This document shows positions 35,425-62,752 of a stretch of DNA of 64,000 nt, piece by piece (within the stretch, counting starts at the first letter, position 1; every line of letters begins with the position of its first letter). The notes under the pieces were generated by a model. The model was not told where the DNA came from. It made no database searches and saw only the letters and a program-made list of their open reading frames with translations. The stretch comes from Deltaproteobacteria bacterium IMCC39524. GTDB taxonomy: Bacteria; Desulfobacterota; Desulfuromonadia; Desulfuromonadales; BM103. A program made the position numbers and the translations under genes. Location: assembly GCA_029667085.1 (NCBI GenBank), contig JARUHJ010000002.1:124001-188000 (forward strand). The letters run 5' to 3'.

Positions 35425-35435
35425 TGTGTTCGCTC

Positions 35436-37422: not shown

Positions 37423-37467
37423 AAGTAGTCTGTCCGTATCAATTGTTTCTGGGGCTGTAATAAGTCA

Positions 37468-37543
37468 TTCAACGCGGAGGTGCGGTGACGCAGAGGGAAA
37501 CTTCAGGTAAAGGTTTTCAGCGTCACCGCGCCTCCGTGTTGAA
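37468..37543. repeat. Near-perfect 24-bp inverted repeat between selA and selB
   Basis: TTCAACGCGGAGGTGCGG and the mirrored CCGCGCCTCCGTGTTGAA form arms of about 24 bases with two mismatches and a 27-base loop. It is an intergenic repeat unit; it may stabilise or attenuate the selA-selB message. Confidence 0.8.
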
Positions 37544-37551
37544 TAATATCA

Positions 37552-38952
37552 TCAACAGAAAATCTGCTTCAGGGCCTTCAAAAGCAAGGCTTCATCCTCC
37601 TGGTTCAGGGTCCGGGGGTCGATCAGGAACCGATCGTCCTGAATGCGCCCGATAACAGCCGGCTCACAACTGCGTAATCGCGTTGTCAGCTCATTGAGAG
37701 AGATTTGCTTTGGCGCCAGAGCGATGACGCATCCGGGCAGCTCGGCAAGAGGCAGCGCGCCGCCACCCACGGTTGCCGTTGTTTCGATGATGCCACAGTC
37801 TGCTTTGTCGCCAAGATGAGTCAAGAGATGGGGCAGGAGGTTTTCGCAGCGGTACTGCAACTCCTCGACCGGCAATGACAGCATTCTCAAGGTGGGGATT
37901 TGCTGCAAAGCTTTCCGGGGATCAAGATAAAGCCTGAGGGTCGCTTCGAGGGCCGCCAGGCTCAGCTTGTCACTCCTCAGGGCGCGGGCCATGGGGTGCT
38001 TGCGGACCTTGTCGATAACGTCTTTATTGCCGACGATGATCCCTGCCTGGGGTCCTCCGAGCAGCTTGTCGCCGCTGAAGGTGACCAGGTCGATGCCGGT
38101 TCCCAGTGCTTCCCGTACCGTTGGCTCGCGTGGCAGTCCATAAGGGGTCAGGTCCATCAACAGGCCGCTACCGAGATCTTCGAGGACCGGAATGTTTTGT
38201 TGATGAGCAAGTTCAGCCAGCTCTTCGCCGCTGACCGCTTCGGTGAAGCCCAGGATCCGGTAGTTGCTGGTGTGGACCTTGAGAATAAGCGCCGTCTCTT
38301 TGTTGATGGCGTCAGCGTAATCCTTGAGATGAGTCTTGTTGGTGGTGCCCACTTCAACCAGTTCGACACCACTGGCCGCCATAATGTCCGGGATACGGAA
38401 AGAGCCGCCGATCTCGATCAGCTCGCCACGTGAGACGATGGCACTCTTGCCACCGGACAGGGCTGCCAGGGCGAGCATGACCGCGCCGGCGTTGTTGTTG
38501 ACCACCGTCGCTGCTTCGCCACCGGTCAGCTTGCAGATCAGTTCTTCAACATGGGTGAAGCGTTTGCCGCGTTGGCCTGCATCGAGATCATACTCAAGGT
38601 TGGAATACCCCTGGGCAACCTCTTTGATTGCCTGCAGCGCTTCGTTGCAGAGCGGCGCCCGACCGAGGTTGGTGTGCAGAAGCGTGCCGGTAACATTGAT
38701 GACCTTGCGTAAAGAGGGCTTGGCCATCAACGCGACCCGAACGGCGACCCGTTCGGCAACGGCCTCAATGTCCAGGTCGGGCAGGGGGGCCTTTTGGTCA
38801 AGAAGCTGTTGGCGCAGGTCGTCGACAACCTGCTGGGCGGCCTCAAGAATCAGAAGGTGGGGTTGAGTTTCCTCAAGCTTGGAGAGGATTCTGGACCCCA
38901 GCAGCCTATCGATTGCAGGCAGAGTGCGCAAGAGTGCGCGGCGATCAGGCAT
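37552..38952 (-). CDS. selA: L-seryl-tRNA(Sec) selenium transferase
   Basis: The 466-residue PLP enzyme converts Ser-tRNA(Sec) to Sec-tRNA(Sec) using selenophosphate. Recognisable parts are the N-terminal helical tRNA-binding region, INVTGTLLHTNLGRAPL, NNNAGAVMLALAALS, EVGTTNKTHLKDY and the PLP-lysine loop TFSGDKLLGGPQAGIIVG. GGAGGTGA lies before the ATG. It follows the AhpD-like selenoprotein gene after 45 bases and heads the selA-selB-selD series. Confidence 0.96.
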   Translation of the reverse strand: MPDRRALLRTLPAIDRLLGSRILSKLEETQPHLLILEAAQQVVDDLRQQLLDQKAPLPDLDIEAVAERVAVRVALMAKPSLRKVINVTGTLLHTNLGRAPLCNEALQAIKEVAQGYSNLEYDLDAGQRGKRFTHVEELICKLTGGEAATVVNNNAGAVMLALAALSGGKSAIVSRGELIEIGGSFRIPDIMAASGVELVEVGTTNKTHLKDYADAINKETALILKVHTSNYRILGFTEAVSGEELAELAHQQNIPVLEDLGSGLLMDLTPYGLPREPTVREALGTGIDLVTFSGDKLLGGPQAGIIVGNKDVIDKVRKHPMARALRSDKLSLAALEATLRLYLDPRKALQQIPTLRMLSLPVEELQYRCENLLPHLLTHLGDKADCGIIETTATVGGGALPLAELPGCVIALAPKQISLNELTTRLRSCEPAVIGRIQDDRFLIDPRTLNQEDEALLLKALKQIFC

Positions 38953-39270: not shown

Positions 39271-39803
39271 TATTTCATGACCTTTTGATGCGTCATCTGT
39301 TGGTTATGTTTCCCTGTAGTTTGTGTAACAAATTGCGTTCCAACTTTCAACTAATATTCACAAAAGTGATTGACGAAGTCCCTCTGCCGTAAGGATGGGG
39401 CAAGGTGGTGATGACCTGTGCAAACTGGGCCTGATGATTGCATCAACGTGGTCACAGCAATATTCTGGGGTACTTTTAAGCCTTTTCAAGGTCAAGGATG
39501 ATTAAATGGAGGACATGGCGCTCCTTTGAGGGCATGAGTTCAGCGGAGCACCCTATACTTAGAGGGACAATAATGGTCTTTTCACTGTTGCTAAACTGTG
39601 ATATTTTACCGCGTTATTGTGCCCTTTGCAGGGAAAGGGCGTAAATTGTTCTTTGGGGGAAGACGCTTCTTATCGCTTTGATGCTAAAGCGAAACAAACA
39701 TCTATCCTGTGTGAATCCTCCTTTTACCTTTCATTACATCGAAAAGCTGACGTTTATGATTTGGAACTGCAAGGAAATTTTTCTGATTGCAAGGAGCAGG
39801 GTT
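39271..39803. other. 530-bp divergent gap between the sel operon and the secretion locus
   Basis: There is no convincing gene. It must hold the promoters of both operons. Candidate -10-like ACCCTATACTTAG lies near 39550 on the plus strand; no operator or riboswitch is recognised. In-frame codons exist upstream of the TolC-like gene's GTG start, but they lack a ribosome site. Confidence 0.5.
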
Positions 39804-42800
39804 GTGCTTGCTAGTCTCAGGTGGTGTGTTTGCTGTTCACTCCTTTTGACTCTGCAATTTGTTGCGTCTTCATTTGTTTCGACCTCTGCTGCCGAAGTGC
39901 AGTTGGGCACCGATGATTCGACATCATCAACCCGTGCATCTTCGAGTCGGTCTGAGTCTTTCGTCAGTCCCCTCACGACACCAACGGGGATTGTGATGGG
40001 TTTTGTCCTGGGGGTGGGTGAGCTTCCGGAGTTTTCAAAAGATTTGGAGGCCGTTGGTTTTTATCTGCAAGAGCAGTTATCCCTGCCGGTCAAGATGCGT
40101 ACTTTTGGAAGCGATGACCAGCTATACAACTGGTTGTCGCGTTTTAGAGAGGTTGATGTCGCCTGGCTCAGTGAGGATTTCCTCAAGAGTCTCCCTGTCG
40201 GAGACGTTTCCTCTCTGGCTCAAAGCCCAAGGCCTTCTGGTCTTTTCCCCTCGGGAGAGCTCGTCGCTCACCCCGGCTTTGATGGTGAACTCCGTCAACG
40301 GATCAGTGATGTCTTTTTGAGTATGGATCAAACATCTTCGGGGCGGGAGTTGTTGGCTCGACTTGAAATTGAACATTTTGTTGCGTCATCTCAAAGAATG
40401 CCCTCGAAGGTGGCAGAGGCGGTTGTGCCGGCGGGAGAGCCTGGTTCCCCCCTTGATGAAGTCAAAGGCATACCGATGTCGGTGTTTGTTGCCGGTCGCG
40501 CAACGCAGACCGGGCGCACGCCAGAATCTCGAGTCCTCGAGTCCGAGGACGACGTGGAGCTTAATGCTCTGGTTCGCTCCCCTGCTGCAGAAGATTTTGT
40601 CGAGCCTTTAGAGCCAGCGAGCTCTTCAAGAGCACCCGACGTGTTAATTGCTTCTCCCCCATCTCGGGACACCATTGATTCCGAACGTGTCTCGATCGGT
40701 TTTATTGTGGATGATTGCGATAATTTATCGCCATCAAAAAATATGCAGAAATTCAGTTTCTACCTGCAAGAACACCTCTCAATCCCCGTTCAGGTGCGCA
40801 ACTTTTGCACGGAAGATCAGTTATATGACTGGTTAATTCGTTTCAGAGAGGTTGATGCTGCCTGGTTCAGCAAGCAATTCCTCGATGAACTCCCCGTTGG
40901 AGAAATTTTTTCCCTAGCAGAGAATCCAAGTCCTTCTTCAGTGTTTCCTTACGGAGAACTCGTCGCTCGTCCAGGGGTTGAAGATGATCTTCGCAAGCAG
41001 ATAAGTGGTGCTCTGCTGAGCATGGAGCAAACCGCCCCGGGGCGCCAGTTGTTGGCCGAGCTTGAGGTCAGTCGTTTTGTTCCACCACCTCATCGGCAAC
41101 CGTCTCCAGAGCGAAAAGAGACCGTGCAGCGGGACGATTCTGGCGACTATCTCGCGATAAGCGACAATGCATCGCACCTCTCGGAATCGAAGAGTTCTGA
41201 CGTTTCACCGCCACTTTTGTCCAGTCCTGTTCCTGCATTGGCAGAAACCCCGTCGATGCCGGTGACTTCTGCTGGGCAAGCAGAGCAGGTTGTCAGCAGA
41301 CCAAAAGCTCAATCAGTTGAGCTTTTGGAGCAAGAAAAACTTGCACCAGCAAACTCCAGTTCAAAGGCGTCTTCACCACTTCGAAAGACTGATGGGGCCG
41401 GGCAGGTTTTGATCGGTTTTGTCGCCGATGATGGTGCTCTGGTTCAATCTTCAAAAGCCGAGGAGAAAATCGGTCGTTATCTTCAAGCCCAGCTGTCCGT
41501 ACCTATCAAGATGCGCAGCTTCGATACGGAAGCTCAGCTGTATAGCTGGTTGACTCGATTCAGGGAAGTCGACGCGGCATGGCTCAGTAAAACATTCCTC
41601 GATAAACTACCTGTTGGTGAAGTCTTTCGTCTGGCTCAAAGCTCAAGTCCTTCATCGGCTTTGCCTTACGGCGAGTTGGCTGCCCATCCAGGTGCGGATG
41701 GTGAACTCAGGAAACGGATAGGCGCTGCTCTGCTGGGTATGGAGCGAACCTCTGCTGGTCGCGAGCTTTTGGCTGAGCTTGAAATCAGTCGTTTTGTGTC
41801 GTCATCTCAAAAAGAGGCCTCTTCAGAAATGGAGGAACTGGCGCCGCTCGGTGAAACAGAGCCCGCTCGTGCGGTGAATACCGATAAATCGCAGGCCTCA
41901 GAACAGAATGAACCCGAGGCTGCCCCGGCAGTTTTGCTCAATGCCGTTCCTGCTTCGGTTGAAACCCCGTCGGTGCCGGTGGCCGGTGCCGGTCAAACAG
42001 CTCAGGATCTCCGCACACAAGAATCTGTATTCGTCGAGCCTGAGAATGTTGAAAAGACTGCTGATCTGGAAGTACCTACTGTTCGAGAAGACTCTGGCGA
42101 GTCTTCAGCTCCAAAAGATTCTTCTCAATCAAGCACTATCCCAGAGATCTCTTCTTCAGCACAAAGTGTTGAAGACTCCAGGCCGGTTGCAGATGGTTTG
42201 AATGTGCCGGGGGAGCGAAGCTTGGCGGGGTTGGTTGGTCGGTCTGAAATTTCAGTCCTCGCAGACGCCGAAGGGCAGTTTGTGAAAAGCATGGCGATCA
42301 ATCAAGTGTTGGAAGATGAATTCGCCAACCAGGTCGGAGAAACAGACCTTCAGGAGTCGATCAGCGCCGGTCGAAGTTTTAGTCGCGAAAGTCTTGCTGC
42401 TTTGGCGCGTGTTGAACAGGCGGAAGCGCAAACCGGGCAGGCTCTCGCCCAAATGCTGCCTTCCGTTACACTTCGGGCAAATCGTGGTTATGAGACCTCT
42501 GAGCCTTCCGTTGTCGTGGATGAAACAACCGGGGAACTTATCGACTCTGATAAGCACATTCGGACTGATACTGCGCTTACCATTCGTCAGCCTTTGTTTG
42601 ATCTTCCCATCTTTCTGGATTGGCAACGTCGCAAGGTCAAAGAACAGGCTCGCGACGAGGGTTATCGGGGCAATGACGGCGATGCCTATCTCTCCACTGT
42701 CAGCTCCTACCTTTCTCTGGTCTCCAGTCGTTTGCAGGCTGATGTGACGCGCGACTTTGAAAAACAGCTTGACGAGCTACTGACCTATATCGAAAAAAGA

Positions 42801-43607
42801 TCCGAAGCTGGAGCAGCCAGCGTTTCTGACATGACCCGTGTACTCGCGCGCAGTCAGGCGACTGTGTCCTCCCGATTGGAGCTTGAGTCTGCCCATGCTG
42901 CGGCGGGGTCTGAATTTGTTCGGCTGACCAACCTTGTCCCTGAGAAGGTTCGGCTCCCGGTCGTTGAGGACGTTGGCGCCTCGTTGCTGCCGGAATCCTT
43001 TGATGAAGCTGTTGCTGTTGCTATGAAACACAACCCTGATATTGCTGCGCTCACCGCTGAACTTGAGGCTGCAAAAATTGACCAGCACTCAGCAAAGGGC
43101 CGCTATCTGCCCCGTGTTGACGCCGAGTACACGGACACCTATTCCCGTGGCGCAGGTGGTGCTCCCAGTGAAGACGACCAGAGAGACAAGCGCCTCATGC
43201 TGGTGTTGAACTGGGAGCTTTTCAGCGGCGGAAACGACTACAATTTTCATCTTGAAAAAGTAGCGCGACACAAAGAGTTGCAGTACCGTCTGGACGATCA
43301 GCGTCGTAGCGTTGTGCAAGCCCTTTCAGCCAATTATGCTGCTCTTACATCAACGAGGGATCGGATTAAGTCCGGGTACCAGGAGTTGGAGTCGATCTCC
43401 ATTGCGTCAGAAGCCATGTCAAAAAGGATGCTTTCCGGAAACCAGTCTCTACTGGATCTTCTGGATGTCTACAACCAGCACTACCAGGTTCGTGCCCGCT
43501 TGGTCAGCTTGCATACTCTTGAGATGAACACGGTGGCGCAGTTGGCTCGACTGACACTCGGCACTCCGTGGGCGAAGTCTGAAAGAAGGTCTTCTCAGGG
43601 TGAATGA
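39804..43607 (+). CDS. TolC-like outer-membrane channel with three N-terminal repeated modules
   Basis: The 1,267-residue protein is about three times a normal TolC. The start is the GTG with AAGGAG 7 bases upstream, giving a signal peptide (LASLRWCVCCSLLLTLQFVA). Three modules of about 135 residues (about 62-197, 294-430, 533-669) share IGF(V/I), YLQxQLSxPxxxR(T/N/S)F, LxRFREVD(V/A)AW(L/F)S, LP(V)GE(V/I) and GRxLLAxLE(I/V)xxFV. These are joined by Ser/Pro/Glu-rich linkers. The pattern resembles part of PhnD-type periplasmic binding proteins. Residues about 850-1265 are an outer-membrane efflux protein domain (SRESLAALARVEQAEAQTGQ to LARLTLGTPW). It is first in the adhesin secretion operon, the SiiC/LapE position. 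Confidence 0.85.
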   Translation: MLASLRWCVCCSLLLTLQFVASSFVSTSAAEVQLGTDDSTSSTRASSSRSESFVSPLTTPTGIVMGFVLGVGELPEFSKDLEAVGFYLQEQLSLPVKMRTFGSDDQLYNWLSRFREVDVAWLSEDFLKSLPVGDVSSLAQSPRPSGLFPSGELVAHPGFDGELRQRISDVFLSMDQTSSGRELLARLEIEHFVASSQRMPSKVAEAVVPAGEPGSPLDEVKGIPMSVFVAGRATQTGRTPESRVLESEDDVELNALVRSPAAEDFVEPLEPASSSRAPDVLIASPPSRDTIDSERVSIGFIVDDCDNLSPSKNMQKFSFYLQEHLSIPVQVRNFCTEDQLYDWLIRFREVDAAWFSKQFLDELPVGEIFSLAENPSPSSVFPYGELVARPGVEDDLRKQISGALLSMEQTAPGRQLLAELEVSRFVPPPHRQPSPERKETVQRDDSGDYLAISDNASHLSESKSSDVSPPLLSSPVPALAETPSMPVTSAGQAEQVVSRPKAQSVELLEQEKLAPANSSSKASSPLRKTDGAGQVLIGFVADDGALVQSSKAEEKIGRYLQAQLSVPIKMRSFDTEAQLYSWLTRFREVDAAWLSKTFLDKLPVGEVFRLAQSSSPSSALPYGELAAHPGADGELRKRIGAALLGMERTSAGRELLAELEISRFVSSSQKEASSEMEELAPLGETEPARAVNTDKSQASEQNEPEAAPAVLLNAVPASVETPSVPVAGAGQTAQDLRTQESVFVEPENVEKTADLEVPTVREDSGESSAPKDSSQSSTIPEISSSAQSVEDSRPVADGLNVPGERSLAGLVGRSEISVLADAEGQFVKSMAINQVLEDEFANQVGETDLQESISAGRSFSRESLAALARVEQAEAQTGQALAQMLPSVTLRANRGYETSEPSVVVDETTGELIDSDKHIRTDTALTIRQPLFDLPIFLDWQRRKVKEQARDEGYRGNDGDAYLSTVSSYLSLVSSRLQADVTRDFEKQLDELLTYIEKRSEAGAASVSDMTRVLARSQATVSSRLELESAHAAAGSEFVRLTNLVPEKVRLPVVEDVGASLLPESFDEAVAVAMKHNPDIAALTAELEAAKIDQHSAKGRYLPRVDAEYTDTYSRGAGGAPSEDDQRDKRLMLVLNWELFSGGNDYNFHLEKVARHKELQYRLDDQRRSVVQALSANYAALTSTRDRIKSGYQELESISIASEAMSKRMLSGNQSLLDLLDVYNQHYQVRARLVSLHTLEMNTVAQLARLTLGTPWAKSERRSSQGE

Positions 43608-43777: not shown

Positions 43778-44461
43778 ATGGCATCACGTCATGAAGATAA
43801 CGATGGCTCAGATATTTTCTGGCCCGGCTATGTAGACGCTACGACCAACCTGATCCTTAACCTCCTCTTCCTCTTGACGATTTTGATGGTCGCTGTCTTC
43901 ATGTTTGCTCTCGAACTAGGGCGTTCCAGCCCGACTAAACCAGAAAATCCACCGGTGGTTTCTCCCCTAGAGGATCCGGAAGCTATTCCTTCGGGCACAA
44001 CTGACCCAGTTCAGGAAAATATTGCGTTAAGGCGTGAAGTTCTGCGTTTGAAAATGGAGCTTGCAAAGAAGGTCCCAGAGTCTGCTCAAGCAGGTGGTGT
44101 CGTTGAAACTGTGGAGGGTACCTCCCCTTTGGCGATACCGCAGAATGGCCTGGATAAGACCTTGGCTAGTGAGACAGAAATTATTGTACGGTTCATGGGA
44201 GAGTCCATTGAATTTATGCCTGCAGAACACGACCGCTTGCTCGAGGTATTGAAGCCCATTGCCGAAGCAGGGAAGGCAAGTATTACCGTTGAAGTCCCCG
44301 CGGGCTTTTCAGAAGCTAAGCGTATGGGGTTCTATAGAGCGATGTCGGTGCGAAATTTACTGATTGAAATGGAACTTCTCCAGGAAAACATTGATGTTTC
44401 GGTGGTTGAAGGAAACAACAAGGCCAACGCCTCAATCGTCAGGGTCAGGCCGCGTCAATAA
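43778..44461 (+). CDS. MotB/SiiA-like membrane protein with OmpA-like periplasmic domain
   Basis: The 227-residue protein starts with a short cytoplasmic segment, then GYVDATTNLILNLLFLLTIL. This is one TM helix with an Asp at its beginning (Asp19), the position of the proton-binding Asp in MotB, TolR and ExbD. A Pro-rich linker, a coiled segment (ENIALRREVLRLKMELAKKV) and an OmpA/MotB-like C-terminal fold (VRFMGESIEFMPAEHDRLLE, ...RAMSVRNLLIEMEL) follow. In SPI-4, SiiA plays this role beside SiiB. The HlyD-like gene starts 5 bases after its stop. The pairing with the downstream MotA-like gene makes a proton channel likely. Confidence 0.8.
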   Translation: MASRHEDNDGSDIFWPGYVDATTNLILNLLFLLTILMVAVFMFALELGRSSPTKPENPPVVSPLEDPEAIPSGTTDPVQENIALRREVLRLKMELAKKVPESAQAGGVVETVEGTSPLAIPQNGLDKTLASETEIIVRFMGESIEFMPAEHDRLLEVLKPIAEAGKASITVEVPAGFSEAKRMGFYRAMSVRNLLIEMELLQENIDVSVVEGNNKANASIVRVRPRQ

Positions 44462-44466
44462 GACTT

Positions 44467-45765
44467 ATGCAACTTTCCATATTTCATAAGGTACGTAAAG
44501 CCTTTGCTGACTTGTCGCCCCGGGTCGCCTTTGTCTTGCTGTTGCTGTTTAGCAGTATCGGTTTATTCGTGTGGGCTGGAATTGCAGAAGTCGATGTTAT
44601 TGTGCGCACTGAGGGACAGATCATTCCAGCCGGAAAATCGCAAATTGTGCAACATCTTGAAGGCGGGATTGTTCGTAAAATTCTGGTGAAGGAAGGTCAG
44701 GTCGTTGTTGCCGGAGAACCTTTGATAGAGTTAGCCGATGTACAGACCCGCTCAGACCTGGGGCAGGAACAGTCCATGCTTGATGCCTTGCGTGGCCGTG
44801 AAGCCCGTTTGATGGCTGAGTTAAATGGGACAGACACGATTACCTTCCCCGACACGCTGAATGACCCCAATGTGATCCGTTCGGAGACCGCTGCCTGGCA
44901 GGCGCGTCGTGCTCAACTTGACGAAGAGGTTCAGGTCTTGCAGGCGTTAAGTCTGCAAAAGAAGAGCGAGTTGGCGGAAATAAATTCGAAAAGAGAGAAC
45001 CTTCTTGAAGAGTTGAAATTGGCGATGAAAAAGCATCAGGTTATTGATGACCTGAGAAAAAACAACGCTGCCTCTGAACTGGAAGTTCTTGAAAGCCAGA
45101 TCCGCATACAAAAGCTCAATTCGCAAATAGATGAAGCCATAAATGCTGCTCCGCGCTTACGGGCTGCCCAGTCAGAAGCCGAATCGCGGGTAAAAGAAGC
45201 CGTTGCCCGTTTTCAGGCGGAAGCGTCTTCGGCATTGACTGAAGTGCGTGAGGATCTTGAAAAACTAAGTCATGAGATTGGTACCAGCGTCGACCGACTC
45301 GACAGGAATGTCGTCAGGAGCCCGGTTGCGGGTTTTATTAATAAATTGAATATCTCGACCATTGGCGCCGTCGTACGTCCTAGCGAAATATTGTTGGAAA
45401 TTACGCCTAGCGATGAACGCTTTGTCATTCAGACCCGATCAAATCCAAACGATCGCGCCCATCTCCGCCGTGGCTTGCCGGCGCGAGTGCGCATTGGAGC
45501 CTATGATTACGCAACCTATGGCACCTTTGAAGGTCATGTGACCGAGGTCAGCTCCGATACTCTGGTCGATGAGAGAGACAATCACTATTACCGTGTGAAT
45601 ATAGAGGTCGATGTGTCGACGATCATGTCACGTGCCCGCCAGCCGGGTGTGCTGATGCCTGGCATGGCTGCAAGCGTTGATATTGCCGTTGGTAAACGAA
45701 CGGTTCTGTCGTACATCCTTTCTCCTTTGTTGAAGTTTCGTGATGGGGCGTTTCGTGCCAATTAA
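44467..45765 (+). CDS. HlyD-family membrane fusion protein (type I secretion adaptor)
   Basis: The 432-residue protein has an N-terminal TM (VAFVLLLLFSSIGLFVWAGI) followed by IVRTEGQIIPAGKSQIVQHL and EGGIVRKILVKEGQVVVAGE, the biotinyl-lipoyl-like half-motif typical of HlyD/PrtE adaptors. A long alpha-hairpin (about residues 100-270) and the second half-motif VVRSPVAGFINKLNIST come next, then a beta-barrel domain ending VDIAVGKRTVLSYILSPLLK. It bridges an inner-membrane ABC transporter to TolC, so an ATPase partner is required somewhere. It corresponds to SiiD/LapC. Confidence 0.93.
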   Translation: MQLSIFHKVRKAFADLSPRVAFVLLLLFSSIGLFVWAGIAEVDVIVRTEGQIIPAGKSQIVQHLEGGIVRKILVKEGQVVVAGEPLIELADVQTRSDLGQEQSMLDALRGREARLMAELNGTDTITFPDTLNDPNVIRSETAAWQARRAQLDEEVQVLQALSLQKKSELAEINSKRENLLEELKLAMKKHQVIDDLRKNNAASELEVLESQIRIQKLNSQIDEAINAAPRLRAAQSEAESRVKEAVARFQAEASSALTEVREDLEKLSHEIGTSVDRLDRNVVRSPVAGFINKLNISTIGAVVRPSEILLEITPSDERFVIQTRSNPNDRAHLRRGLPARVRIGAYDYATYGTFEGHVTEVSSDTLVDERDNHYYRVNIEVDVSTIMSRARQPGVLMPGMAASVDIAVGKRTVLSYILSPLLKFRDGAFRAN

Positions 45766-45837: not shown

Positions 45838-47802
45838 ATGTTTAAACAACTCAAAATTTACTACATTCTTATATCACTGCCTTTTGTTTTGCTGCTGACT
45901 GGCTCCGCAGTTTTTTTTGACGCGATTCAGATGACCATAACCCGCAATCCTCATCCACAAATCAACTATACCATTTTCATTATTATCCTTTTCGGGGGCT
46001 TCCTGATCCTTATCAATGCCCGCCAGTTGGTAAAGGAAGCCAGGACAGTGGTGGATTTTTCCAGAGCTATCCACGCGAAAATTGATTTGGACGCTCTGCA
46101 GGAAATAGCCAGCAAATATACGGGCGCTGTTGCTTGCTTGTTTCAAATGGTCGCTTCATCGACCGGCCGCTCCATCTCTCATCAGGAACAGGTCGCCATT
46201 GAGAATGAACTGACAAACGCACGGTCCGGTCTGCAACGTCGTAATGCCTTGCCCCAATACCTGACCGGTTTGTTGGTCGGTATGGGACTGCTGGGAACAT
46301 TTATTGGTCTGCTCGCAACTCTTAATGACATTTCAACCCTGATCAGCAGCTTTGCAGAAATTGATATGAAAACTGCGAGTCCCCTCGTTGTCTTCCGTAC
46401 CATGATTGAACGGATGAAAGCCCCGATGCAGTCAATGGGGATTGCTTTCTCGGCCTCTATGTTCGGCTTGCTGGGATCAATCATCCTCGGCTTGATGATG
46501 GTCGGAATCCGCCGTTTACAGGGGGATATCTTCTCCTTGCTTCATTCGGAAGTTGCTCGTCACATCGAATTTGCTCTTTCCTTTGAACCCGCTGTCTCCG
46601 CCGGCTTGACCGGAGGAGTGGCGGTGCGCAGCGGAGATGAATACAAAGTTCTGATTCGCATTGAAGAAAGATTGGCCGAGGCGGCACGCCTGCAGCAGCG
46701 TAAATTGTCATCTGAAATAGACGATTTTCAAAAACAGCGCGCTGATATGTTGAGGGCTTTAACCGAGCAAACCGAAGCAAGCAATAACTTTCGTGGTGAA
46801 TTACAGGAACTGGGCAGGCAGCTCGGCACTATTGTCAATATTATGGAGAAGGGCAACGGTGAGGTCTGTAACCAAATTTCTGAGTTGACAGTTCATATGG
46901 CTGGAGACGCCAAAGAAACGCGTAAGCTGTTGGCTATGCAGGTGGATGAGCAGAAGGGCTTAAAGGAAACACTCGACTCTTACAATATTGAAGAAAGATT
47001 GTCTTTGGCGGAAAAATTGCATGAGCAAAAGCTGGCTTCCACAGAGAATACGCTTCAAGAACAACGCTCTGACATGTTGCGTACCCTTGCCGAGCAGACC
47101 GAGGCGAACAATGGTTTCCGTGATCAGTTGCAACAGCTTGGGGGCAAACTCGGCAGCCTTTTCGATGTGATAGAGAAGGGCAGCGGTGAGGTTTCCAGTC
47201 AACTGTCCGAACTGACGGTTCATCTGGCTAATGATGCAAAGGAGTCACATATCCTTCTTACCGATGCGAGTAATAACTTCCGCACTGATTTGCAGCAGCT
47301 TGGCAGCCAGCTGGGCAGCATTTGTAATCTTATCGAGAAGAGTGATGGTGATGTCAGTCGTCAGATTTCCGAGCTGACAGCGCGACTTGCTGTGGATGCC
47401 CAGGAGTCCCGGAGCCTGCTCGCCAATCAGGTGGATGAACAGAAAGGCCTGAGAGAGACTCTCGATTCATACAACATCGAAGAAAGGTTAGCAGAGGCGG
47501 CACGCGTTCAACAGCGAGCATTGTCATCTGAGATTGATGACTTCCAAAAGCAACGAGCTGACATGCTCCGTACCTTGAATGAACAGGTTGAGGCCAGCAA
47601 TAACTTCCGCAGTGAATTGCAGCAACTGGGCCGGCAACTCGAGACCATCTTCAATGTTACGGAGAAAGGCAACGATGAGATCTGTAGCCAGGTTTCCGAG
47701 TTAATGATTCATATGACCGCGGATGCCAAGGAGTCGAACAGGCTGCTTGGCTTGCTGGTGAGTGAACAGAGTCACAAAGATGACGCAGATTTGCAGACTT
47801 AG
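45838..47802 (+). CDS. MotA/TolQ/ExbB-like (SiiB-like) protein with repeated coiled-coil tail
   Basis: The 654-residue protein has TM helices at about 7-27, 44-60, 142-163 (GLLVGMGLLGTFIGLLATLN, the MotA/ExbB signature) and 201-225. From about residue 260 onward the chain is charged coiled coil built from repeats of about 110 residues. Shared blocks are EERL(A/S)EAAR, SEIDDFQKQRADMLR, SNNFRxELQxLGxQL and EQKGL(K/R)ETLDSYN; there are roughly three full repeats and a partial one. The first part matches the proton-channel subunit SiiB in SPI-4; the tail is not part of ordinary MotA or ExbB. It is separated from the MotB-like gene by the adaptor gene. Strong AGAGAGAG precedes the ATG. Confidence 0.82.
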   Translation: MFKQLKIYYILISLPFVLLLTGSAVFFDAIQMTITRNPHPQINYTIFIIILFGGFLILINARQLVKEARTVVDFSRAIHAKIDLDALQEIASKYTGAVACLFQMVASSTGRSISHQEQVAIENELTNARSGLQRRNALPQYLTGLLVGMGLLGTFIGLLATLNDISTLISSFAEIDMKTASPLVVFRTMIERMKAPMQSMGIAFSASMFGLLGSIILGLMMVGIRRLQGDIFSLLHSEVARHIEFALSFEPAVSAGLTGGVAVRSGDEYKVLIRIEERLAEAARLQQRKLSSEIDDFQKQRADMLRALTEQTEASNNFRGELQELGRQLGTIVNIMEKGNGEVCNQISELTVHMAGDAKETRKLLAMQVDEQKGLKETLDSYNIEERLSLAEKLHEQKLASTENTLQEQRSDMLRTLAEQTEANNGFRDQLQQLGGKLGSLFDVIEKGSGEVSSQLSELTVHLANDAKESHILLTDASNNFRTDLQQLGSQLGSICNLIEKSDGDVSRQISELTARLAVDAQESRSLLANQVDEQKGLRETLDSYNIEERLAEAARVQQRALSSEIDDFQKQRADMLRTLNEQVEASNNFRSELQQLGRQLETIFNVTEKGNDEICSQVSELMIHMTADAKESNRLLGLLVSEQSHKDDADLQT

Positions 47803-47909
47803 AAAATGATTCTGGTGCCACTGTAACGTGGCGTCAGCTCTTCACAGTTGGCCAGGTTGTCCCGTGCCTGATTGTGGAATATCGGTAGAAATAGAAAATG
47901 GGAGTTGTT

Positions 47910-50900
47910 ATGGCAAAAAGCACTGACGGCGAAAAAGGAAATACCGTGATTGAAGGGATCGAGCAAGGGCAGCAGGTTGAGGTCGCCCTTATTGCCCCGG
48001 ATGGAACCATTTCCCTTCCACAGCCTGCAGAAAATCTCGAATCCGTTTCTGTAGCGGACGTCGATTTATTGTTGCGCTTTTCTGATGGCACCTTCGTCAT
48101 CATACCCAATGGTGCGCTTGATGCTGCTATTAACTCCGAGCAGGCAGTCTTTTTTACGACGGATGACAGCGACAATGATCATCAGAGTAGCTTGGGTGAT
48201 CTTTTTAAAATGGTCGGTATTACCCGAATTGCAGGTCCCGGCAGCGTAAGGGTTGTGAGTGAAAATGTTGAAGTCATACAAGCGCTGGAAGAAGACGTTG
48301 ATCCAGAAAAACATGACTATGATCCTGCCCCTTCAAGAGAATCATCTCTAAAAGACAAAAGCACTTTATCTGATCCGGTTGAAACGGCAAGCAGCGGTGC
48401 TGCCTTGAACGGTAAGGGGCCGGGGACTGGTGCTACTGATCCAAGTTCATTCCTTGAGGAGACCTCTGATCCGGTAGTGCCGAGAACAACACCTCGGCCT
48501 ACGGTCTATCAGGCAGCTAAAGAAACAGAAGATCTCAGCGAACCGACAGTTACCCTTGATGCAAATATTACCGCTGACGATATCATTAATATTGCTGAAT
48601 CGGGCGGTGACGTCACGGTTACCGGTACGGCTGGCGGCGGCGCCAGGGCCGGTGATGTCGTCACGCTGACGGTTAATGGCATTAACTCTTTTGGCCTGGT
48701 GCAGGGTGATATGACCTTCAGCGCCGTTGTCGCGGGTTCCGACCTTGTTGCTGACGGTGATTACACGATTGACGCCAGTATCACCTCTGCCGGTTCTTCT
48801 AACCCCGGCACAGATACCGAGGGCTACGGTGTCGACATCAAGGCACCTGCCCCGACAATCGAACTTGATGCCAGTCTTGCCGCTGCCGATGTCGTCGCAA
48901 TCGCGGATGATGGCGGTAGTGTGGCGATCACTGGTACCGTCGGCGGTGATGCCCAGGTTGGTGATTTGGTCACTCTGACCGTAAATGGTGTCGATTTTAT
49001 TGGACTGGTTCAAACAGACCTGTCTTTCAGTATCGATGTCGCAGGTTCCGGTTTGGTCGATGGTGAAGGTGTGGTCGACGCCGCACTTATCACCAGCCCA
49101 GATATCGCAGGTAACCCAAGCTTGCTTGGCACTGACACCGTACAATATGATCTCGGCGCACCGGAGCTCGCTGTTGGTCAAAGCTACAATTACGCTGAGA
49201 ACCAAGTCGAAGGCAATGTGATCGCCATTGTTGCTGCCAGCGATGATATAGGTGTTACCGATTTCCGTTTCAGCGCCAGCGGCACCAATCTGAGTGCTGA
49301 CGGTTACTACACGATTTCTTCCGATGGACAAATCAGCATTACATCAGCCGGTGTTGCCGCCGGTGTAGCTCAGAACGATTTTGAGCCCGTTGAAGGCGAC
49401 ATGGTCGCCTTCGTGTCTGCCTCCGATGCCGTCGGGGTGACCGACTTCCGTTTCAGCGCCAGCGGCACCAATCTGAGTGCTGACGGTTTCTATACGATTT
49501 CTTCCGAAGGACAAATCAGCATTACATCAGACGCAGTTGTCGCCGGTGTGGCTCAGAACGACTTTGAGAGTGGGTTTAACAGCTCTATCTATGACATCGA
49601 GGCTGACGATGGGGCGGGCACATGGTCGCCATTCGTAAACATCACCCTTAACGATATCAATTCTTTTAACTATGTCATCGAGGCGGGCGATGCCGCCGGG
49701 AAATGGTCGTCTGCCGAGAACATTATCCTTAACGTTACTAACGTCGATGAGGCCGCCCCGGAGGTTGCCTCTGACCAGATTTTCAACTACGCAGAGGATC
49801 GGTCTGAAGGTGACGTGGTCGCCACCGTGGCGGCAACCGATGATGTTGGTGTTGTCGCCTATCGAATTTCCAGCGGAAACGACAATGGCTATTTTGCCAT
49901 AGATACCAACGGTCAAATTACTCTGACTGCCGACGGTGTGGCTAGCGCGGTCAATGACTACGATACCAATCCGAACAGCTTTGACCTTGGTATCCAGGCC
50001 GTAGATGCCGCGGGTAAATGGTCTACTGAAAAGACCATCACACTTGATGTCTTCGGAGACGTTAATAGTGTCGATCTTACCCCTCCAGAAGTTACAAAAG
50101 GGCAAAGTTTTAGCTATGCTGAGAACCAGGCTGCCGACGCAGTAGTAGCGACTGTTGCGGCCAGTGATGCCCGGGGTGTCGTTAGGTATGAGATTGTCAC
50201 CGGCAATGACAATGGATATTTCTCCATTGACGCTGATGGCCAGATTAAGATCACCGGGGATGGCGTTGCTGCTACAACTAACGACTTTGATGACGGAGTT
50301 GATAGTTTCATCCTCGGTGTTCGGGCCTACGACGCAGCTAATAACCCGTCAATTGTCGAAGATGTCACTCTCTTCGTTACCAATGTGAACGAGGCACCGG
50401 CCGGTACAGACAAAACCATCACGATGCTGGAAGACGGCAGTCACTCCTTCGCGGCCAGTGACTTCGGCTTTACTGACCCAAGCGACCTTCTGGAAAACAA
50501 CCTGGCAGCAGTGGAGATCACCACGGTGCCTGGCGCTGGCACACTGACGCTGAATGGCATAGACGTTAATGCCGGTGATCTCATTGCCGCCGCAGACATT
50601 CATAATCTGGTTTACCAGCCAACGGCTGATGATAATGGTAACGGCTACGCGAGCTTTACCTTCAAGGTGCAGGATGACGGCGGCACGGCTAATGGCGGCA
50701 TCAATCTCGATCCGAGCGCCAACGTCATCACCTTCGACATCACTCCTGTGAACGACGCGCCGGTGGCGACTGCTGATGCTCAGACAACGGAAGAGAACAC
50801 CGTCTTGAGCAGCAATGTTCCTACAGCGACAGATGTTGACGACACCATTGCCAGTTATCAACTGGTCGGTGACGTTTCTGAAGGCACGCTGACCTTCAAC

Positions 50901-53900
50901 GCAGATGGCAGTTACAGTTTCGATCCGGAAACCGCCTTCGACAACCTGGCGGACGGGGACAGTCGCGATGTAACGTTTACTTACACGGCCACCGACGATT
51001 TTGGAGACGTCAGCGACGCCCAGACGGTGACCATCACAGTCACGGGGAAGAACGACGCGCCGGTGGCGACTGCTGATGCTCAGACAACGGAAGAGAACAC
51101 CGTCTTGAGCAGTAATGTTCCTACAGCGACAGATGTTGACGGCACCATTGCCAGTTATCAGCTGGTCGGTGACGTTGCTGAAGGCACGCTGACCTTCAAC
51201 GCAGATGGCAGTTACAGTTTCGATCCGGAAACCGCCTTCGACAACCTGGCGGACGGGGACAGTCGCGATGTAACGTTTACCTACACGGCTACCGACGATT
51301 TTGGAGAAGTCAGCGACGCCCAGACGGTGACCATCACGGTCACGGGGACGAACGACGCGCCGGTGGCGACTGCTGATGCTCAGACAACGGAAGAGAACAC
51401 CGTCTTGAGCAGCAATGTTCCTACAGCAACAGATGTTGATGGTACCATCGACCGCTATCAGCTGGTCGATACGGCTGCTGAGGGCTCCCTGACTTTCAGT
51501 CCAGACGGCAGCTACACCTTCAACCCCGGAACCGACTTCGACGATCTGGCCGCTGGAGTTAGCCGTAACGTCACTTTCACTTACACCGCCACCGATAACT
51601 CGGGTGCGACCAGCGCGATCCAGACAGTGACCATCACGGTCACGGGGACGAACGACGCGCCGGTGGCGACTCCGGATGCTCAGACAACGGAAGAGAACAC
51701 CGTCTTGAACAGCAATGTGCCTGTAGCAACAGATGTTGACGGCACTATCACAGATTATCAGCTGGTCGATACGGTTACCGAAGGCTCTTTGGCTTTCAGC
51801 TCGGACGGCAGCTACACCTTCACCCCCGGAACCGACTTCGACGATCTGGCGGATGGCGCCAGCCGCGACGTTACTTTCACGTATACTGCCACTGACAACC
51901 TTGGAGAGCCCAGTGCGCTTCAGACCGTCACCGTGACCGTGACCGGGAGCAACGACGCACCGACAACAAGTTCGGTCGCCCTGGCGCCAATTGCCGAGGA
52001 TGGTGTCCGGCTGATCACCACGGGAGAGCTCCTGGCCAACGCCAACGATGTCGATAGTGCTAGCGGTAGCCTGACGATCAACAACCTTGTCATCAGCTCC
52101 GGGAATGGCAGCCTGAATGATAACGGCGATGGTACCTGGAACTACACTCCGGCGGCTGACGACGACACCAATGTCAGCTTCAGCTACGATATTAGCGACG
52201 GCATCGATTCGGTCGTTGGCAGTGCAACTCTAGACATCACACCTGTGAATGACGCACCGGTGGCGACACCTGATGCTCAGTCAACGGAAGAGAATACTGT
52301 CTTGAGTAGCAATGTGCCTGTAGCAACAGATGTTGACGGCACCATCGACCGCTATCAGCTGGTCGATACGGTTGCCGAGGGCTCCCTGGCCTTCAGCCCG
52401 GACGGCAGCTACACTTTTAACCCTGGAACCGACTTCGACGATCTGGCCGCTGGAGCTAGCCGTGATGTCACTTTCACCTACACCGCTACCGACAACTCGG
52501 GTGCGACCAGCGCGATTCAGACCGTCACCCTCACAGTGAACGGGACGAACGACGCTCCGGTGGTGACACCTGATGCTCAGACAACGGAAGAGAACACCGT
52601 CTTGAACAGCAATGTGCCTGTAGCAACAGATGTTGACGGCACTATCACAGATTATCAGCTGGTCGATACGGTTACCGAAGGCTCTTTGGCTTTCAGCTCG
52701 GACGGCAGCTACACCTTCACCCCCGGAACCGACTTCGACGATCTGGCGGATGGCGCCAGCCGCGACGTTACTTTCACGTATACTGCCACTGACAACCTTG
52801 GAGAGCCCAGTGCGCTTCAGACCGTCACCGTGACCGTGACCGGGAGCAACGACGCACCGACAACAAGTTCGGTCGCCCTGGCGCCAATTGCCGAGGATGG
52901 TGTCCGGCTGATCACCACGGGAGAGCTCCTGGCCAACGCCAACGATGTCGATAGTGCTAGCGGTAGCCTGACGATCAACAACCTTGTCATCAGCTCCGGG
53001 AATGGCAGCCTGAATGATAACGGCGATGGTACCTGGAACTACACTCCGGCGGCTGACGACGACACCAATGTCAGCTTCAGCTACGATATTAGCGACGGCA
53101 TCGATTCGGTCGTTGGCAGCGCTACTCTGGATATTACTCCGGTGAACGACGCGCCGACAACGACACCCATTACGCTTGATCCGATTGCAGAAGACAGCGG
53201 GGTTCTTGTTATCACTCAAGCGGAACTGTTGGCGAATGTCAGCGATGTTGATGATAACAGTCATACCGTGAGCAACTTGGGGATCACTTCAGGCAGCGGT
53301 ACTTTGATCGATATCGGCGGTGGCACATGGAACTACACACCGGCCGCCAATGACGACACCAGCGTAAGCTTCAGCTACACCATCACTGATAACGGCACGA
53401 CCAATGGGGCGCCTGATCCGAAGAGCGTGAATGGCAGTGCGACATTGGAAATTACACCAGTTAACGATGCACCGGTGGTTGCTGATATTGATGTAACTGG
53501 CGCTGTCACAGAGATGATCGTCCCGTCTGGAAACCTGACTGATAGCGGCACGATCTCCTTTAGCGATGTTGATCTGTCTGATAGTCATAGTGTTAGCTTG
53601 GTAACCTCCTCAGCGGGGGCTTTGGGCTCTCTTAGTGTCAACGTTATCCAAACGGACGGTACCGGCAACGGCGGCGTGATCAACTGGGGCTACACGGTTG
53701 CGGCTTCTGATGTGGAATTCTTGGCTGCTCGCGAAATCAAGGTTGAAACTTTCAGCTTTGATGTGTTGGATGGACAAGGTGGAAGTGTCAGTAGGACTGT
53801 TGAAGTTACCATAACCGGGACCAACGATGAGCCGGTCATTGATGTTGCAAATGTCACGGGTGATATTCTCGAGATGGGCACTCCAGTCGGTAATCTTACT

Positions 53901-56900
53901 GCCTCTGATACCATCACCTTTAGCGATGTGGATTTAAACGATATCCATAGCATTGGTTTAGTGTCCTCGCCTTTAACGCAATTAACTCTTGGCACTCTGA
54001 CCGCGAGTGTGACCGCCGGAACTGACAACACCTCTGGTTTGGGTGGCGAGATTACCTGGCTTTATACAGTGGAAGCTTCTGCCGTAGAATTTCTTGGCGA
54101 CGGCCAATTGCATTCCGAAACTTTTAGTTTTGATGTAATCGACGGGCAAGGTGGGAGCGTTCCCCAGACGGTTACTATAACTATCACTGGCACCAGCGAT
54201 GGCATTAACAATCCGCCTGTGGTCGATGTCGTCGACGTAACCGGCGAAGTTACTGAGATGATTGTCCCAGATGGCAATCTGACCAACAGCGGCACGATTG
54301 GCTTCAGTGATGTAGATGTGATGGATATTCACAGTGTCAGCTCTGTGACCGCGTCAGAAGACGCTTTGGGCAACTTTGCTGCTAACGTTACCACTGATAC
54401 CACTGGTACCGGTATTGGTGGCGTAGTGACCTGGACATATTACGTAGACGCTTTGGCTGTAGAGTATCTGGCTCTGGACGAAACAAAAGTTGAAACTTTC
54501 TCTTTTTATGTTCTTGACGACCGTGGTGGTGCTGTCGAACGAACGGTCGAGGTGACGATTACGGGTACGAATGATGCGCCGACGATCGATGTGGTAGCGA
54601 CCGACGCTGCAGGTGCCATTACGGAGACGGATGGGCCGGTTGTTGATCCTTCCGATCTGACCGATAGCGGCACGATCTCTTACGCCGACGTTGACCTGAC
54701 TGACACACACACTGCCACTATTACTTCGGACGTGACTGGCTATTTGGGTGCCTTCACGCTTGACGCAGCAGTAGACACCGACGCCCGGACTGTGGGCTGG
54801 GATTTCAAAATCGATCCGACTCTGGTCGAGTATTTGGCAGCAGATCAGGAGTTGGTCCAGAGTTACACCGTAACCATCAAGGATCAGCATGACGAACCGG
54901 TCGATCAGATTGTGACGATCACGGTCACCGGAACCAACGATGCGCCTGTGATCAATGCGATCACGAAGACAGACGTGTCGGAGCAGACTGATACGGATGT
55001 TTTGACCAGTGAGATTGATGTCACCTTTACGGACATTGATCTTGCCGATGTGGATCACAGCGCCAGTATCACAGACGTAACCTATAGCGGAGTGTTCACC
55101 GGCCTGACTCTAGATAAAGCGGCCCTGATTGACCTGATCAGCGTCGGCACCGTGACGAAGGCAGAGGGAAGTGATGCTGGCAGCCTGACTCTGACTTTTG
55201 AGGCAGGTTCGACGGCATTTGACTACTTGGCCGATGGTGAGATTGTTACCTTGACCTACACCGCCGAAGTGGATGATGGCGATGGCGACACGGACACTCA
55301 GAACTTTGTCGTAGAGATCACCGGTACGAACGATGTGCCGACGATCGATGTGGTAGCGACCGATGCTGCAGGTGCTATTACGGAGACGGATGGGCCGGTT
55401 GTTGATCCTTCCGATCTGACCGATAGCGGCACGATCTCTTACGCCGACGTTGACCTGACTGACACACACACTGCCACTATTACTTCGGACGTGACTGGCT
55501 ATTTGGGTGTCTTCACGCTTGACGCAGCAGTAGACACCGACGCCCGAACTGTGGGCTGGGATTTCAAAATCGATCCGACTCTGGTCGAGTATTTGGCGGC
55601 AGATCAGGAGTTGGTCCAGAGTTACACCGTGACCATTAAGGACAACAATGGAGAGCCGGTCAACCAAATTGTGAAGGTGACGATTACCGGCACCAATGAC
55701 GCACCGGTAGCTGTAGCCGATACTGCCAATGCGGTCGAGGCAGGTGGTGTAGACAACGACATTACGGGCAGCAATGCCACTGGGAATGTGCTCACGAACG
55801 ATCAGGATGTTGACAGTGCTGCCGGTGGTGAAACCAAGGCCGTGTTGGCAGTATCTGGCGATACCGCAAATGTGGGCGTGGATGTTATTGGAACCTACGG
55901 CACGCTGACCCTGAACGCAAACGGCAGCTACACCTATGTGGTTGACGAAAGCAATTCCACTGTTCAGGAACTTCGCATATCCGGGCAAACCGTCTCCGAG
56001 TCCTTTGCCTATACGATGGCCGATGGTCAAGGTTCGACCAGTTCCAGTACCTTAACCATCACGGTCAAAGGTAGCAACGATGCGCCGGTGGCTGTCGCCG
56101 ATACGGGGAGTGCAGAAGAGGCTGGTGGGGTAGATAATGGCACTCTGGGCAGCAATGCCACCGGTAATGTTCTCACGAATGACACCGATGTTGATAGTGA
56201 GCTCAATGGCGAGACTAAAGCCGTGTCGGCCGTCAGCGGCGATTCCTCAAATGTGGACAAAGCGGTAGTCGGAACTTACGGCACGCTCACCTTGAGTGCT
56301 GATGGCAGCTATACCTATGTGGTCGATGAAAACAATGCTGATGTTCAAGCGCTGCGCGTCGCCGGAGAAACTGTCTCTGAAGAATTTAGCTACACTGTTG
56401 TTGATGCAGGAGGACTCTCCAGTTCCAGCACTTTGACCATCACAGTCGAAGGGCGCAACGATGCTCCGACGGCAATTGAAATGCTTGGTACTGTTGTAAA
56501 TGATAAGGCTGATGCTGGAACCCTGATCAGTGTGCTTTCTGGAGTCGATGTGGATGCGGGCGATACATTTACCTACAAGTTGGTTGACGACGTCAATTTT
56601 GCTGACAACGCGCTGGTTGAGATTGTTGGGAACGAGTTGCGAGTTAAGACTGATGGCACGATTGATTATGATACCAATCCAACTCTTGAAATCAAGGTCG
56701 AGGTCACTGATGCTGAAGGGTTGAGCCATGAGGAGAGTTTAACCGTCAATGTCATCAACCTGGATGATGGTCCACCAGAGATTGTACTCGACCAGTCGTA
56801 CATCTACCTCGAAGGGCAGTCTGACCCAGGAGGCGGGTTGGGTAAAGTCGTTGCGACCGTTGCAGCAACAGATGACATAGGTGTCACCGATTTCCGTTTT

Positions 56901-59900
56901 ACTGATGGCTACGATGTTAATGGGGATGGGAGTCTTTACGATCACACCACCAGCGCTGACGGTTTTTTTACGATCTCATCTAATGGTCAAATTTCATTGG
57001 TTGACTTCGACGGAACTGCCAATGATTACGACGATGGCGTGTTCCGTTTCGAGTATTTGGTCGAGGCCACTGATGCTGTCGGTGAGACCACCGGTGTATG
57101 GTCCGCACCAGAGAAAGTCGTTCTCAGCGTCATCGATAATCCTTCGGATAATACAGTGTCCGCGGTGAACGCCACCATTACGATGAGTGATTCACAGCTA
57201 GCGATTGATGAAACAGCAATAGTCACGATAAAGTTCGACGAGCCTATCGATGCAAGCACCTTTTCGCTTGATGATCTATCCGCTCAACGAGGTGATTTTT
57301 TACTTGATGACCTCACTCAGGATGACCTCGATCTTAGTCTCTGGACCGCCACATTTACTCCAGATGCAGGCATCCAAGAAGCGGCCAACTACATTTCACT
57401 GGATCTCACTGGAGTGGAGGACTCTAATGGTGCCCCAGGTATAGGCAATTCTTTGTCGGAGGTTTATGAGATTGATACTCTGCGACCTACAGTGATCATC
57501 GATGTTGCCGAAGAAAATCTAGATTCAGTCAGTGTGAAGACGTCCTTGGTTACCTTTACTTTTAGTGAGCCCGTGACGGACTTCACAAAAGCAGATCTTG
57601 CGATTACCCTTGACGCTAATGGCGATCCTGTTGGGTGGCTGTCGGATCCCGTTGATGCGGGTGGTACCGGGCGCTTTTATACGGCGACTTTTACACCCTA
57701 TGCTGGTGTCGAAGTTACCGGCAACACCATTACTTTGAAAGACGGTAGTGTCTACGATGCTTTACTGAACACCAATCTAGGTGATCTCCCCACCGATAGC
57801 TTCAACATTGATACCCGACTTCCAAGTGTCGAGATTGATGGAGTTACTGTCAGCGATGATTTGATCGTTGATTCAGAGACCGGTACGTTGGAGACATTCA
57901 CGGTCACAGTCACCTTTGATGAAACAATGGATACCAACACTCCTCCAACGCTGTCCTTCATCGATGGGGCTGGCGTGACCATTACCGACCCCGCCGCCAC
58001 CCTCGGATTGACACTCAACACCATCACTAGTGGCTGGGACCTTACTGACAAAAAGACCTACACGGCAATCTACAGTGTGTCCGATGAAAATGTTGACCTC
58101 TCGAATATTCAGATCGGCGTAACTGACGCCCTCGATGCTGCAGGGAACCCACAACAGAATTACGATTATACGAGTGGTCCTCAATTTGCTGTCGAAACCG
58201 AAAACCCGACGGTGAAGATCACAACAAGCGGTCACGACAGTATTGTTTCCGATGACGACCCAACTGTGACCTACAATCTGGAGTTTAGCGAGGAAGCCGT
58301 TTTTGCCCAAGGTGACTTGGCCATTTCGGGGGGAGCCTTGGTGGATGGCAGTTTTGCCTTCGATGGACAAATCGCCTCCTTCCAGGTGACCGCTTCAAAT
58401 AATAGTGATGACCCTCTGGTGGTCACAGTCGAGGAAACGGTTGTCGACCTTAATGGCAATAGCTTGGCCTTGGTGGATAATTCCAGCACGCTACCTGTCG
58501 ACCGGATCAACCCGAGTGTTGCCACTCCCTTTGGCATTACCGTCAGTGATACTTTGATCAACGAGGCTGATGCAGCTTCGATAACGTCATTCACCGTCAA
58601 AGTAACTTTCGATGAAGCGATGGATGTCAACACTCCTCCGACGCTGTCTTTCTTAGATGGGGCTGGCGTGGTTATCAACGACCCCGTTATCAGCCTCGGA
58701 TTAACGTTCAACAGCGATAATAGTGGCTGGAATGGTACAGGAAAGACCTACACGGCAACCTACACTGTCTCTGATGAAAATGTTGAACTGTCAAACATCA
58801 AGGTCGGTGTCACCGGTGCGTTGGATGCGGCAGGTAACGAACAGGTGCTTTACGATTACACGGTGGGGCCGTCTTTTGAAGTCGACACCACGAGCCCGAA
58901 ACCGTTCATAGAAAAGATCGATCCTGTCGCAGGTGACAATACGCTTGATTACCTGGAGTCTCTCAACGAGTACACCACGATCACCGGTACTGTTGGTGGC
59001 GATGATATTGCGACAGGCTATACCGTCACCCTGAATATTAATGGTACGCCTTCTGATTATGTATTTGGTCCTCTTCTCGATCCTTCTTTCGATGAGCATT
59101 TCAGTATCGATGTGCTAACGGCAGATCTTGTTGCCGATTTTGATGGTGATCCCGGTACCGATAATGTCATTAGTGCCACTGTCACCACAACAGACGCTGC
59201 GGGCAATGTCGGTACCTCGCCGGTTTTCGACTGGTCTTACAAGACAGATCTCACGACACCGTTTTTTACTTCGACGCTTTATACAGGCTCAGCTTTCAAG
59301 GTTGACCTCGACGGTACACCTTTCCCCGGGGCTCCGGAAGGAGACGTCGACTCCTCCCCTGCGGGCCAGGCCTATCTGGAAACACTGGTTGGCTCCGATG
59401 GGGATGACACCATTAATCATAACAGCGCCTTCAGCGCAGATGAAACCAAGTGGGCTAAACGCCTGCACCTCGATTTCAGCGTCTTTACTGCGGTTACGTT
59501 GATTACCTTACAGTTTGACGCCGCGATTGCGGGTGTCCCCGGCTTTGGCCTGGAGGTGGCTAACGCGGACGTTCAACGGACAGGTGATACATTTACAATT
59601 ACCCCAGATAACCCGCTCTCTTCTGATGACGATCTTGATATCAAGATTGTGTATTCTGTCGACAGTGTGCTTCCGTCAGTGGACTTCTTCTCGGCGCATG
59701 TCAAGGTCGACGGCGACGGCGTGCCGGCCGAAGATGACCTGTACTTCACCTGGCGCGATGCTACTGATGAAGACAGTTTTACCGTGCCGATCGATGCCGA
59801 CGACCTCACTAAGGGCTACATGATGGTCCTACCCCGTGAGGGCCTGGGGGTGCAGATCGAAGCGGGTGAGGGTAGTGACGAGGTGTATGCCGGTGCCGGG

Positions 59901-62729: not shown

Positions 62730-62752
62730 AGGCTTCGATCCGCCAGGAGAGC

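Follow-up and report, generated by a model that had tools for sequence, protein, structure and literature searches.

A lineage-specific family of single-lobe PhnD-type modules on a TolC channel and other envelope proteins of Desulfuromonadales

The window, i.e., the whole stretch of 64,000 nucleotides that was analysed from the sediment-type Deltaproteobacteria bacterium IMCC39524 (genome G000), harbors an SPI-4-like operon in which the gene of a TolC-type channel is extended by three additional modules. The genes of this operon and the parts of the channel gene are as follows:

39756..43607 (+), TolC-type outer-membrane channel preceded at its N-terminus by three single-lobe PhnD modules; 1283 aa, one open frame
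39756..39977 (+), signal peptide and short N-terminal linker; hydrophobic N-terminus MIWNCKEIFLIARSRVVLASLRWCVCCSLLLTLQ...SAA, by eye; start as the ATG of G017
39978..40388 (+), module M1, lobe-1-only PhnD domain (PF12974); dN/dS 0.38
40389..40679 (+), linker 1, polar and low-complexity; dN/dS 0.91, identity 70%, zero gaps
40680..41087 (+), module M2, lobe-1-only PhnD domain, the modelled module; Z 16.7 to E. coli PhnD; dN/dS 0.39
41088..41399 (+), linker 2; dN/dS 0.72
41400..41804 (+), module M3, lobe-1-only PhnD domain (PF12974); dN/dS 0.28
41805..42218 (+), linker 3; dN/dS 0.64; P/S/E/K/Q/T/D/G make up 62%
42219..43604 (+), TolC channel core (OEP); dN/dS 0.09; same-locus orthologues 54-94% identical
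43778..44461 (+), SiiA-like MotB-type protein with one transmembrane segment, invariant Asp20, linker and peptidoglycan-binding-type domain
44467..45765 (+), HlyD-type membrane fusion protein (TIGR01843, 1.2e-105, above cut-off)
45838..47802 (+), MotA-like membrane protein in the SiiB position with a long coiled-coil-like tail
47898..62729 (+), giant repeat adhesin of 4943 aa, the presumed T1SS substrate; follows SiiB in the operon

The start of the channel gene is better placed at the ATG at 39756, giving 1283 residues, because the orthologue in the related genome G017 begins at the equivalent ATG; it likewise comprises 1283 residues and aligns with the window protein without gaps. The sequence-only reading had named a frame-fusion artefact as a way in which it could fail, and this is ruled out by the same continuous gene of the same length in G017. 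Pfam assigns Phosphonate-bd (PF12974) three times to the open reading frame (whole-protein E 8.1e-27, above the cut-off) and, in the same frame as the modules, two stretches of OEP (8.3e-35). These OEP repeats, the T1SS gene neighbours and a signal peptide recognized by eye identify a TolC-type T1SS channel, which shares the two repeats with TolC and LapE-type proteins and matches TIGR01844 with 1.6e-41, i.e., under its curated cut-off. In contrast to these channels, it features ~800 additional N-terminal residues with three beads. The modules comprise ~136 residues each and are separated by low-complexity linkers. Both motifs read from the letters were found in all three of them, namely RFREVDVAWLS, RFREVDAAWFS and RFREVDAAWLS as the first motif of M1, M2 and M3, and GRELLARLEIEHFV, GRQLLAELEVSRFV and GRELLAELEISRFV as the second, with M2 being 49% identical to M1 and 57% to M3. 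No Rfam element was found upstream of the gene.

The genes for TolC, the SiiA-like protein, HlyD, the SiiB-position protein and the giant adhesin form a block that is conserved in ~14 genomes. Asp20 of the SiiA-like protein is located at the start of the transmembrane helix and is invariant in an alignment of 13 orthologues, and the model of the periplasmic domain has its best match in Salmonella SiiA (6qvp, Z 12.5, rmsd 2.2 over 99), ~two Z units above the OmpA-type remainder. Accordingly, a transmembrane Asp and a predicted peptidoglycan-binding-type periplasmic domain occur together as in SiiA of SPI-4. In Salmonella, SiiA and SiiB together constitute a proton channel, with SiiA additionally binding to peptidoglycan (PMC12607715). 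The SiiB-position protein is conserved with 62-100% identity across 15 of the order's genomes; it is called MotA-like by position and eye only, because a Pfam MotA_ExbB match is absent. Within the first 600 residues of the adhesin, Ca2+-stabilised tandem repeats were matched (NF033510, NF012196), and a T1SS ABC gene is located just past the end of the window (best model TIGR03375 with 2.3e-125, below its cut-off). The Salmonella SPI-4 T1SS (SiiA-F) thus features the same set of parts as this operon, comprising TolC, SiiA-like protein, HlyD, SiiB-position protein, giant adhesin and T1SS ABC, whereas the order here is C-A-D-B-E, glycosyltransferase and then F, the TolC bears modules, and the likeness to SiiB is by position alone. 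The glycosyltransferase gene (62711-64000, continuing in L016:212-1507) is located between the adhesin gene, with whose end it overlaps, and the ABC transporter gene; its product possibly modifies the adhesin. Beside the operon, the selenocysteine genes selD, selB and selA are arranged divergently (34393-38952, minus strand), and selA and selB occur likewise in G017.

The raw Pfam match is confined to the C-terminal portion of the PF12974 profile (139-239), which is misleading. A module that represents the C-terminal half of PhnD is ruled out, as its first ~60 residues align to the PhnD N-terminus. In a profile built from 84 modules (A2), columns 4-64 correspond to residues 14-72 of E. coli PhnD and columns 59-139 to residues 177-259; residues ~73-176 have no counterpart in the ~138-residue module, which consequently has no second lobe or hinge. 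AlphaFold2 predicted M2 as a compact alpha/beta domain (mean pLDDT 91.4, pTM 0.85), of which 132 of 140 residues were aligned to E. coli PhnD along chain positions 5-252 with a Z of 16.7. ArrX (16.9) and PtxB (15.4) gave similar values, with the solved members ranging overall from Z 14 to 17, and ~130 of the 140 module residues align over ranges of ~245 residues in the chains of ArrX, PhnD and PtxB, with ~115 residues being skipped. Lobe 1 of PtxB consists of residues 1-84 and 202-255 (138 residues), while the STS-H phosphite/ligand motif is part of lobe 2 (PMC5700983). The two-piece alignment to PhnD, the skipped residues and the lobe boundaries of PtxB therefore show that lobe 2 is missing and that every module corresponds to an entire lobe 1 of a PhnD-type (type II) periplasmic binding protein, standing by itself. 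The proposed structure prediction and profile comparison of one module thereby returned a binding-protein-like fold. Relatedness to PhnD, as had been suspected, holds on the basis of PF12974 and the Z of 16.7, but the part in question is not an arbitrary one; it is precisely lobe 1. The family features the signature V-x-V-R-x-F ... W-L-x-R-(F/Y)-R-x-(V/I)-D.

In lobe 1 fold and sequence the modules resemble PhnD, PtxB, ArrX and AioX (PF12974). Nevertheless, they are devoid of lobe 2, hinge and ligand motif and are fused in tandem to other proteins with no adjoining cognate ABC importer; near the window TolC, such an importer was not found, the neighbours being the sel genes and the T1SS operon. 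A function as phosphonate receptor is rejected, as phosphonate binding is not expected because its site is gone with lobe 2. A partner protein consisting of lobe 2 only was not seen among the PF12974 proteins of the source genome in a non-exhaustive search, and a search of a viral structure library gave no useful match.

Carriers of the module comprise ~78 ORFs in ~31 Desulfuromonadales-type genomes. Matches with E <= 1e-12 were obtained in 31 of 277 genomes of the class, all 31 belonging to one order that is represented by 136 genomes among those searched, with these distribution counts resting on a loose first filter. Likewise, when 395 genomes were drawn from the phylum, full-length matches occurred only in the Desulfuromonadales-type order, whereas the matches outside of it were partial and mostly located in ordinary PhnD-sized frames. 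A pattern scan with one genome per species (84,980 species) confirmed 13 loci, all of which are labelled Deltaproteobacteria or Desulfuromonadales. Neither the phylum draw nor this species-wide scan revealed a full-length module match outside the order. In 77 of the 78 carrier ORFs, the first module starts no more than 120 residues from the frame start, and each ORF in the loci read bears one to three modules. Carrier types include LptD, TolC (OEP), DUF4388, MBL fold, Big (Ig-like), TPR, PgaA_barrel and IAT_beta proteins. The modules thus constitute a domain family specific to this lineage, and they are attached close to the N-terminus in numerous envelope proteins that are not related to one another. 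No report of such a fusion was found in the open-licence literature. Further carriers and loci are the following:

L015:3695-6706, LptD carrying the module (source genome)
L012:367-2301 (-), inner-membrane DUF4388 carrier of 644 aa (source genome)
L018:2946-5771 (-), groEL-adjacent carrier of 941 aa (source genome)
L120:1905-5441 (-), inverse autotransporter carrier (source genome)
L012, L062, L063, L069, L072, L080, L086, L088, L099, L110 and L112, DUF4388 carrier loci with ResB/CcsA neighbourhood
L018, L081, L090, L092, L096, L098, L100, L103, L104, L111, L116, L117, L118 and L122, groEL-adjacent carrier loci
G020:C32:232591-232887, G022:C19:17939-18289 and G021:C88:20158-20475, short single-module frames

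The DUF4388 protein, in which the DUF4388 domain follows a transmembrane segment, is the commonest carrier. As it is also the most widespread one, the ancestral role of the module may have been at the inner membrane. Two genomes (G040 and G042) possess DUF4388 carriers, with no outer-membrane carrier found in them. The DUF4388 carrier is repeatedly located beside ResB/CcsA genes for cytochrome c synthesis and often beside a response regulator. A proline-rich carrier with one to three modules adjoins groEL in all listed loci, which stem from three families of the order, and the C-terminal domain of this carrier gave no Pfam match. In addition, the short frames, which are 225-230 aa long and show a single weak module, are possible free-standing single-lobe proteins.

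Among 14 orthologous TolCs, i.e., the window protein and 13 relatives with cores being 54-94% identical, modules are absent from 11, which bears out the earlier expectation that TolC proteins normally have no such extension. The TolCs of G000 and G017 carry three modules on the N side, and that of G019 carries two on the C side. In a module tree, which is based on 145 columns and leaves deep forks unfixed, the N-side modules nest with those of LptD (support 99/97) and the C-side modules of G019 with the groEL-adjacent family (100/100). Since N-side and C-side fusions thus differ in their donors (LptD and groEL-linked, respectively), the modules were recruited to orthologous TolCs at least twice, from different donors and at opposite ends. 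Each of M1, M2 and M3 groups with the corresponding module of G017; therefore, the triplication is older than the split of both genomes. The bare, N-side and C-side variants of these TolCs offer a natural comparison set.

The modules are under purifying selection which is much stronger than that on the linkers, with dN/dS values of 0.28-0.39 and 0.64-0.91, respectively, compared to 0.09 for the core, all computed on the single genome pair G000 and G017. No indels were found in the linkers between these two genomes. Since the fold is under selection, the ligand site is removed, the tethers are flexible, the carriers are unrelated and recruitment was repeated, the family is read as an interaction module, and the data point to one that is undescribed so far. 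We tentatively propose that the lobe-1 family on envelope proteins works as a tethered docking domain rather than as a phosphonate receptor, a reading which has a good but not a predominant chance of being correct. Each module would serve as a periplasmic docking bead, with flexible, indel-free linkers allowing the beads to reach away from the channel and to bind a shared periplasmic or inner-membrane partner. TolC is trimeric and its termini are periplasmic. Three copies per chain would provide nine beads per trimer, so that weak contacts could add up in order to concentrate, position or hold the exporter. Genomes with DUF4388 carriers as the sole carriers found (G040 and G042) imply that a single universal partner on the outer-membrane side is not required. 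The earlier proposals that the modules engage the adhesin or contact the MotB-like domain are not favoured, because such a partner is not expected for LptD, PgaA-type and DUF4388 carriers, which share the module.

Ligand sensing had also been suggested, and in its classical form it is unlikely because the modules possess neither the ligand cleft nor lobe 2 with its STS-H motif. A half-domain could still sense if the exposed face of lobe 1 bound an ion or a small molecule, either in a single module or in a pair of modules, with the signal gating TolC or crossing the inner membrane via the DUF4388 protein. Isolated lobes of binding proteins fold on their own (PMC10601554, PMC9815098), as is predicted for the modules. 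Such engineered lobes, e.g., domain 1 of TmArgBP, domain A of LAO and the halves of ribose-binding protein, are laboratory constructs, whereas the module represents a natural and repeatedly recruited domain family. Their stability, one lobe of TmArgBP solved with bound arginine (7a99, 6gpc) and the sensor-like layout of the commonest carrier, an inner-membrane protein with DUF4388 after the transmembrane segment, agree with sensing by a half-domain. Nevertheless, this remains rather unlikely, given that the phosphonate motif resides in the missing lobe, that the ligand Tyr of lobe 1 is not conserved (A/E/D/Q/K at the aligned module position 48), that the loop regions following strand 1 and near positions 85-93 vary, and that isolated halves of the ribose-binding protein lost binding (PMC10601554).

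The beads might instead act as passive spacers or shields that do no more than enlarge and extend the channel at its periplasmic opening. A copy number varying from one to three across carriers and the fact that most orthologous TolCs manage without modules would be in line with this. Still, the purifying selection on the modules, far above that on the linkers, the retention of one specific fold across ~78 ORFs and the independent recruitment of the same family twice, rather than of any domain, make it improbable. Besides, binding of a polyanion (peptidoglycan or LPS) via positive charge is unsupported, as the modules of TolC and LptD are acidic on average (mean charge -6.5 and -4.2, respectively). 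The DUF4388 inner-membrane module was more positive than the outer-membrane modules in 13 of the 13 genomes with both (Wilcoxon p 2.4e-4, a test that ignores shared ancestry). This difference would suit a clamshell-like dimerization of inner- and outer-membrane modules, tying the membranes or coordinating exporters, and separated halves of the ribose-binding protein re-associate and regain binding (PMC10601554). However, periplasmic domains of inner-membrane proteins may be basic for other reasons, and G040 and G042 feature the inner-membrane module although an outer-membrane carrier was not found in them, which leaves such trans-envelope pairing quite improbable. Its extension to a Desulfuromonadales "envelope socket", where lobes on inner- and outer-membrane proteins would pair as a split clamshell and link LPS, adhesin and PNAG exporters to an inner-membrane regulator, is a speculative idea with a slim chance of being correct. 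Finally, a handle by which a periplasmic chaperone or assembly factor is bound during outer-membrane delivery fits the near-N-terminal placement in nearly all carriers and the many outer-membrane proteins among them, but is very unlikely, with modules also present on an inner-membrane protein and soluble-looking carriers and at the C-terminus of the G019 TolC.

Beyond the individual channel, LptD, TolC and PgaA-type porins all carry this domain, which suggests a common partner or a shared layer in the organisation of the envelope. Binding proteins are thought to stem from the duplication of a single-lobed ancestor. To our knowledge, single-lobed binding proteins are known mainly from the laboratory, and one shortened natural solute-binding protein, cited in PMC10601554, was reportedly described by Bae et al. 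in 2018. The opposite route is seen here, with a modern binding protein retaining a single lobe that has been distributed among essential as well as accessory envelope proteins, in an order which includes metal-reducing and electrogenic bacteria.

Two further observations concern the surroundings of the operon and the source genome. Two c-di-GMP-I riboswitch aptamers (RF03168 and RF03167; 19322-19398 and 20112-20199, plus strand) lie ~700 bases apart upstream of genes from ~20263, not adjoining the adhesin operon. In addition, the source genome possesses a second adhesin-type T1SS locus (L018:6921-15102) with LapD-like and LapG-like genes, recognized by eye, which is separate from the SPI-4-like operon of the window.
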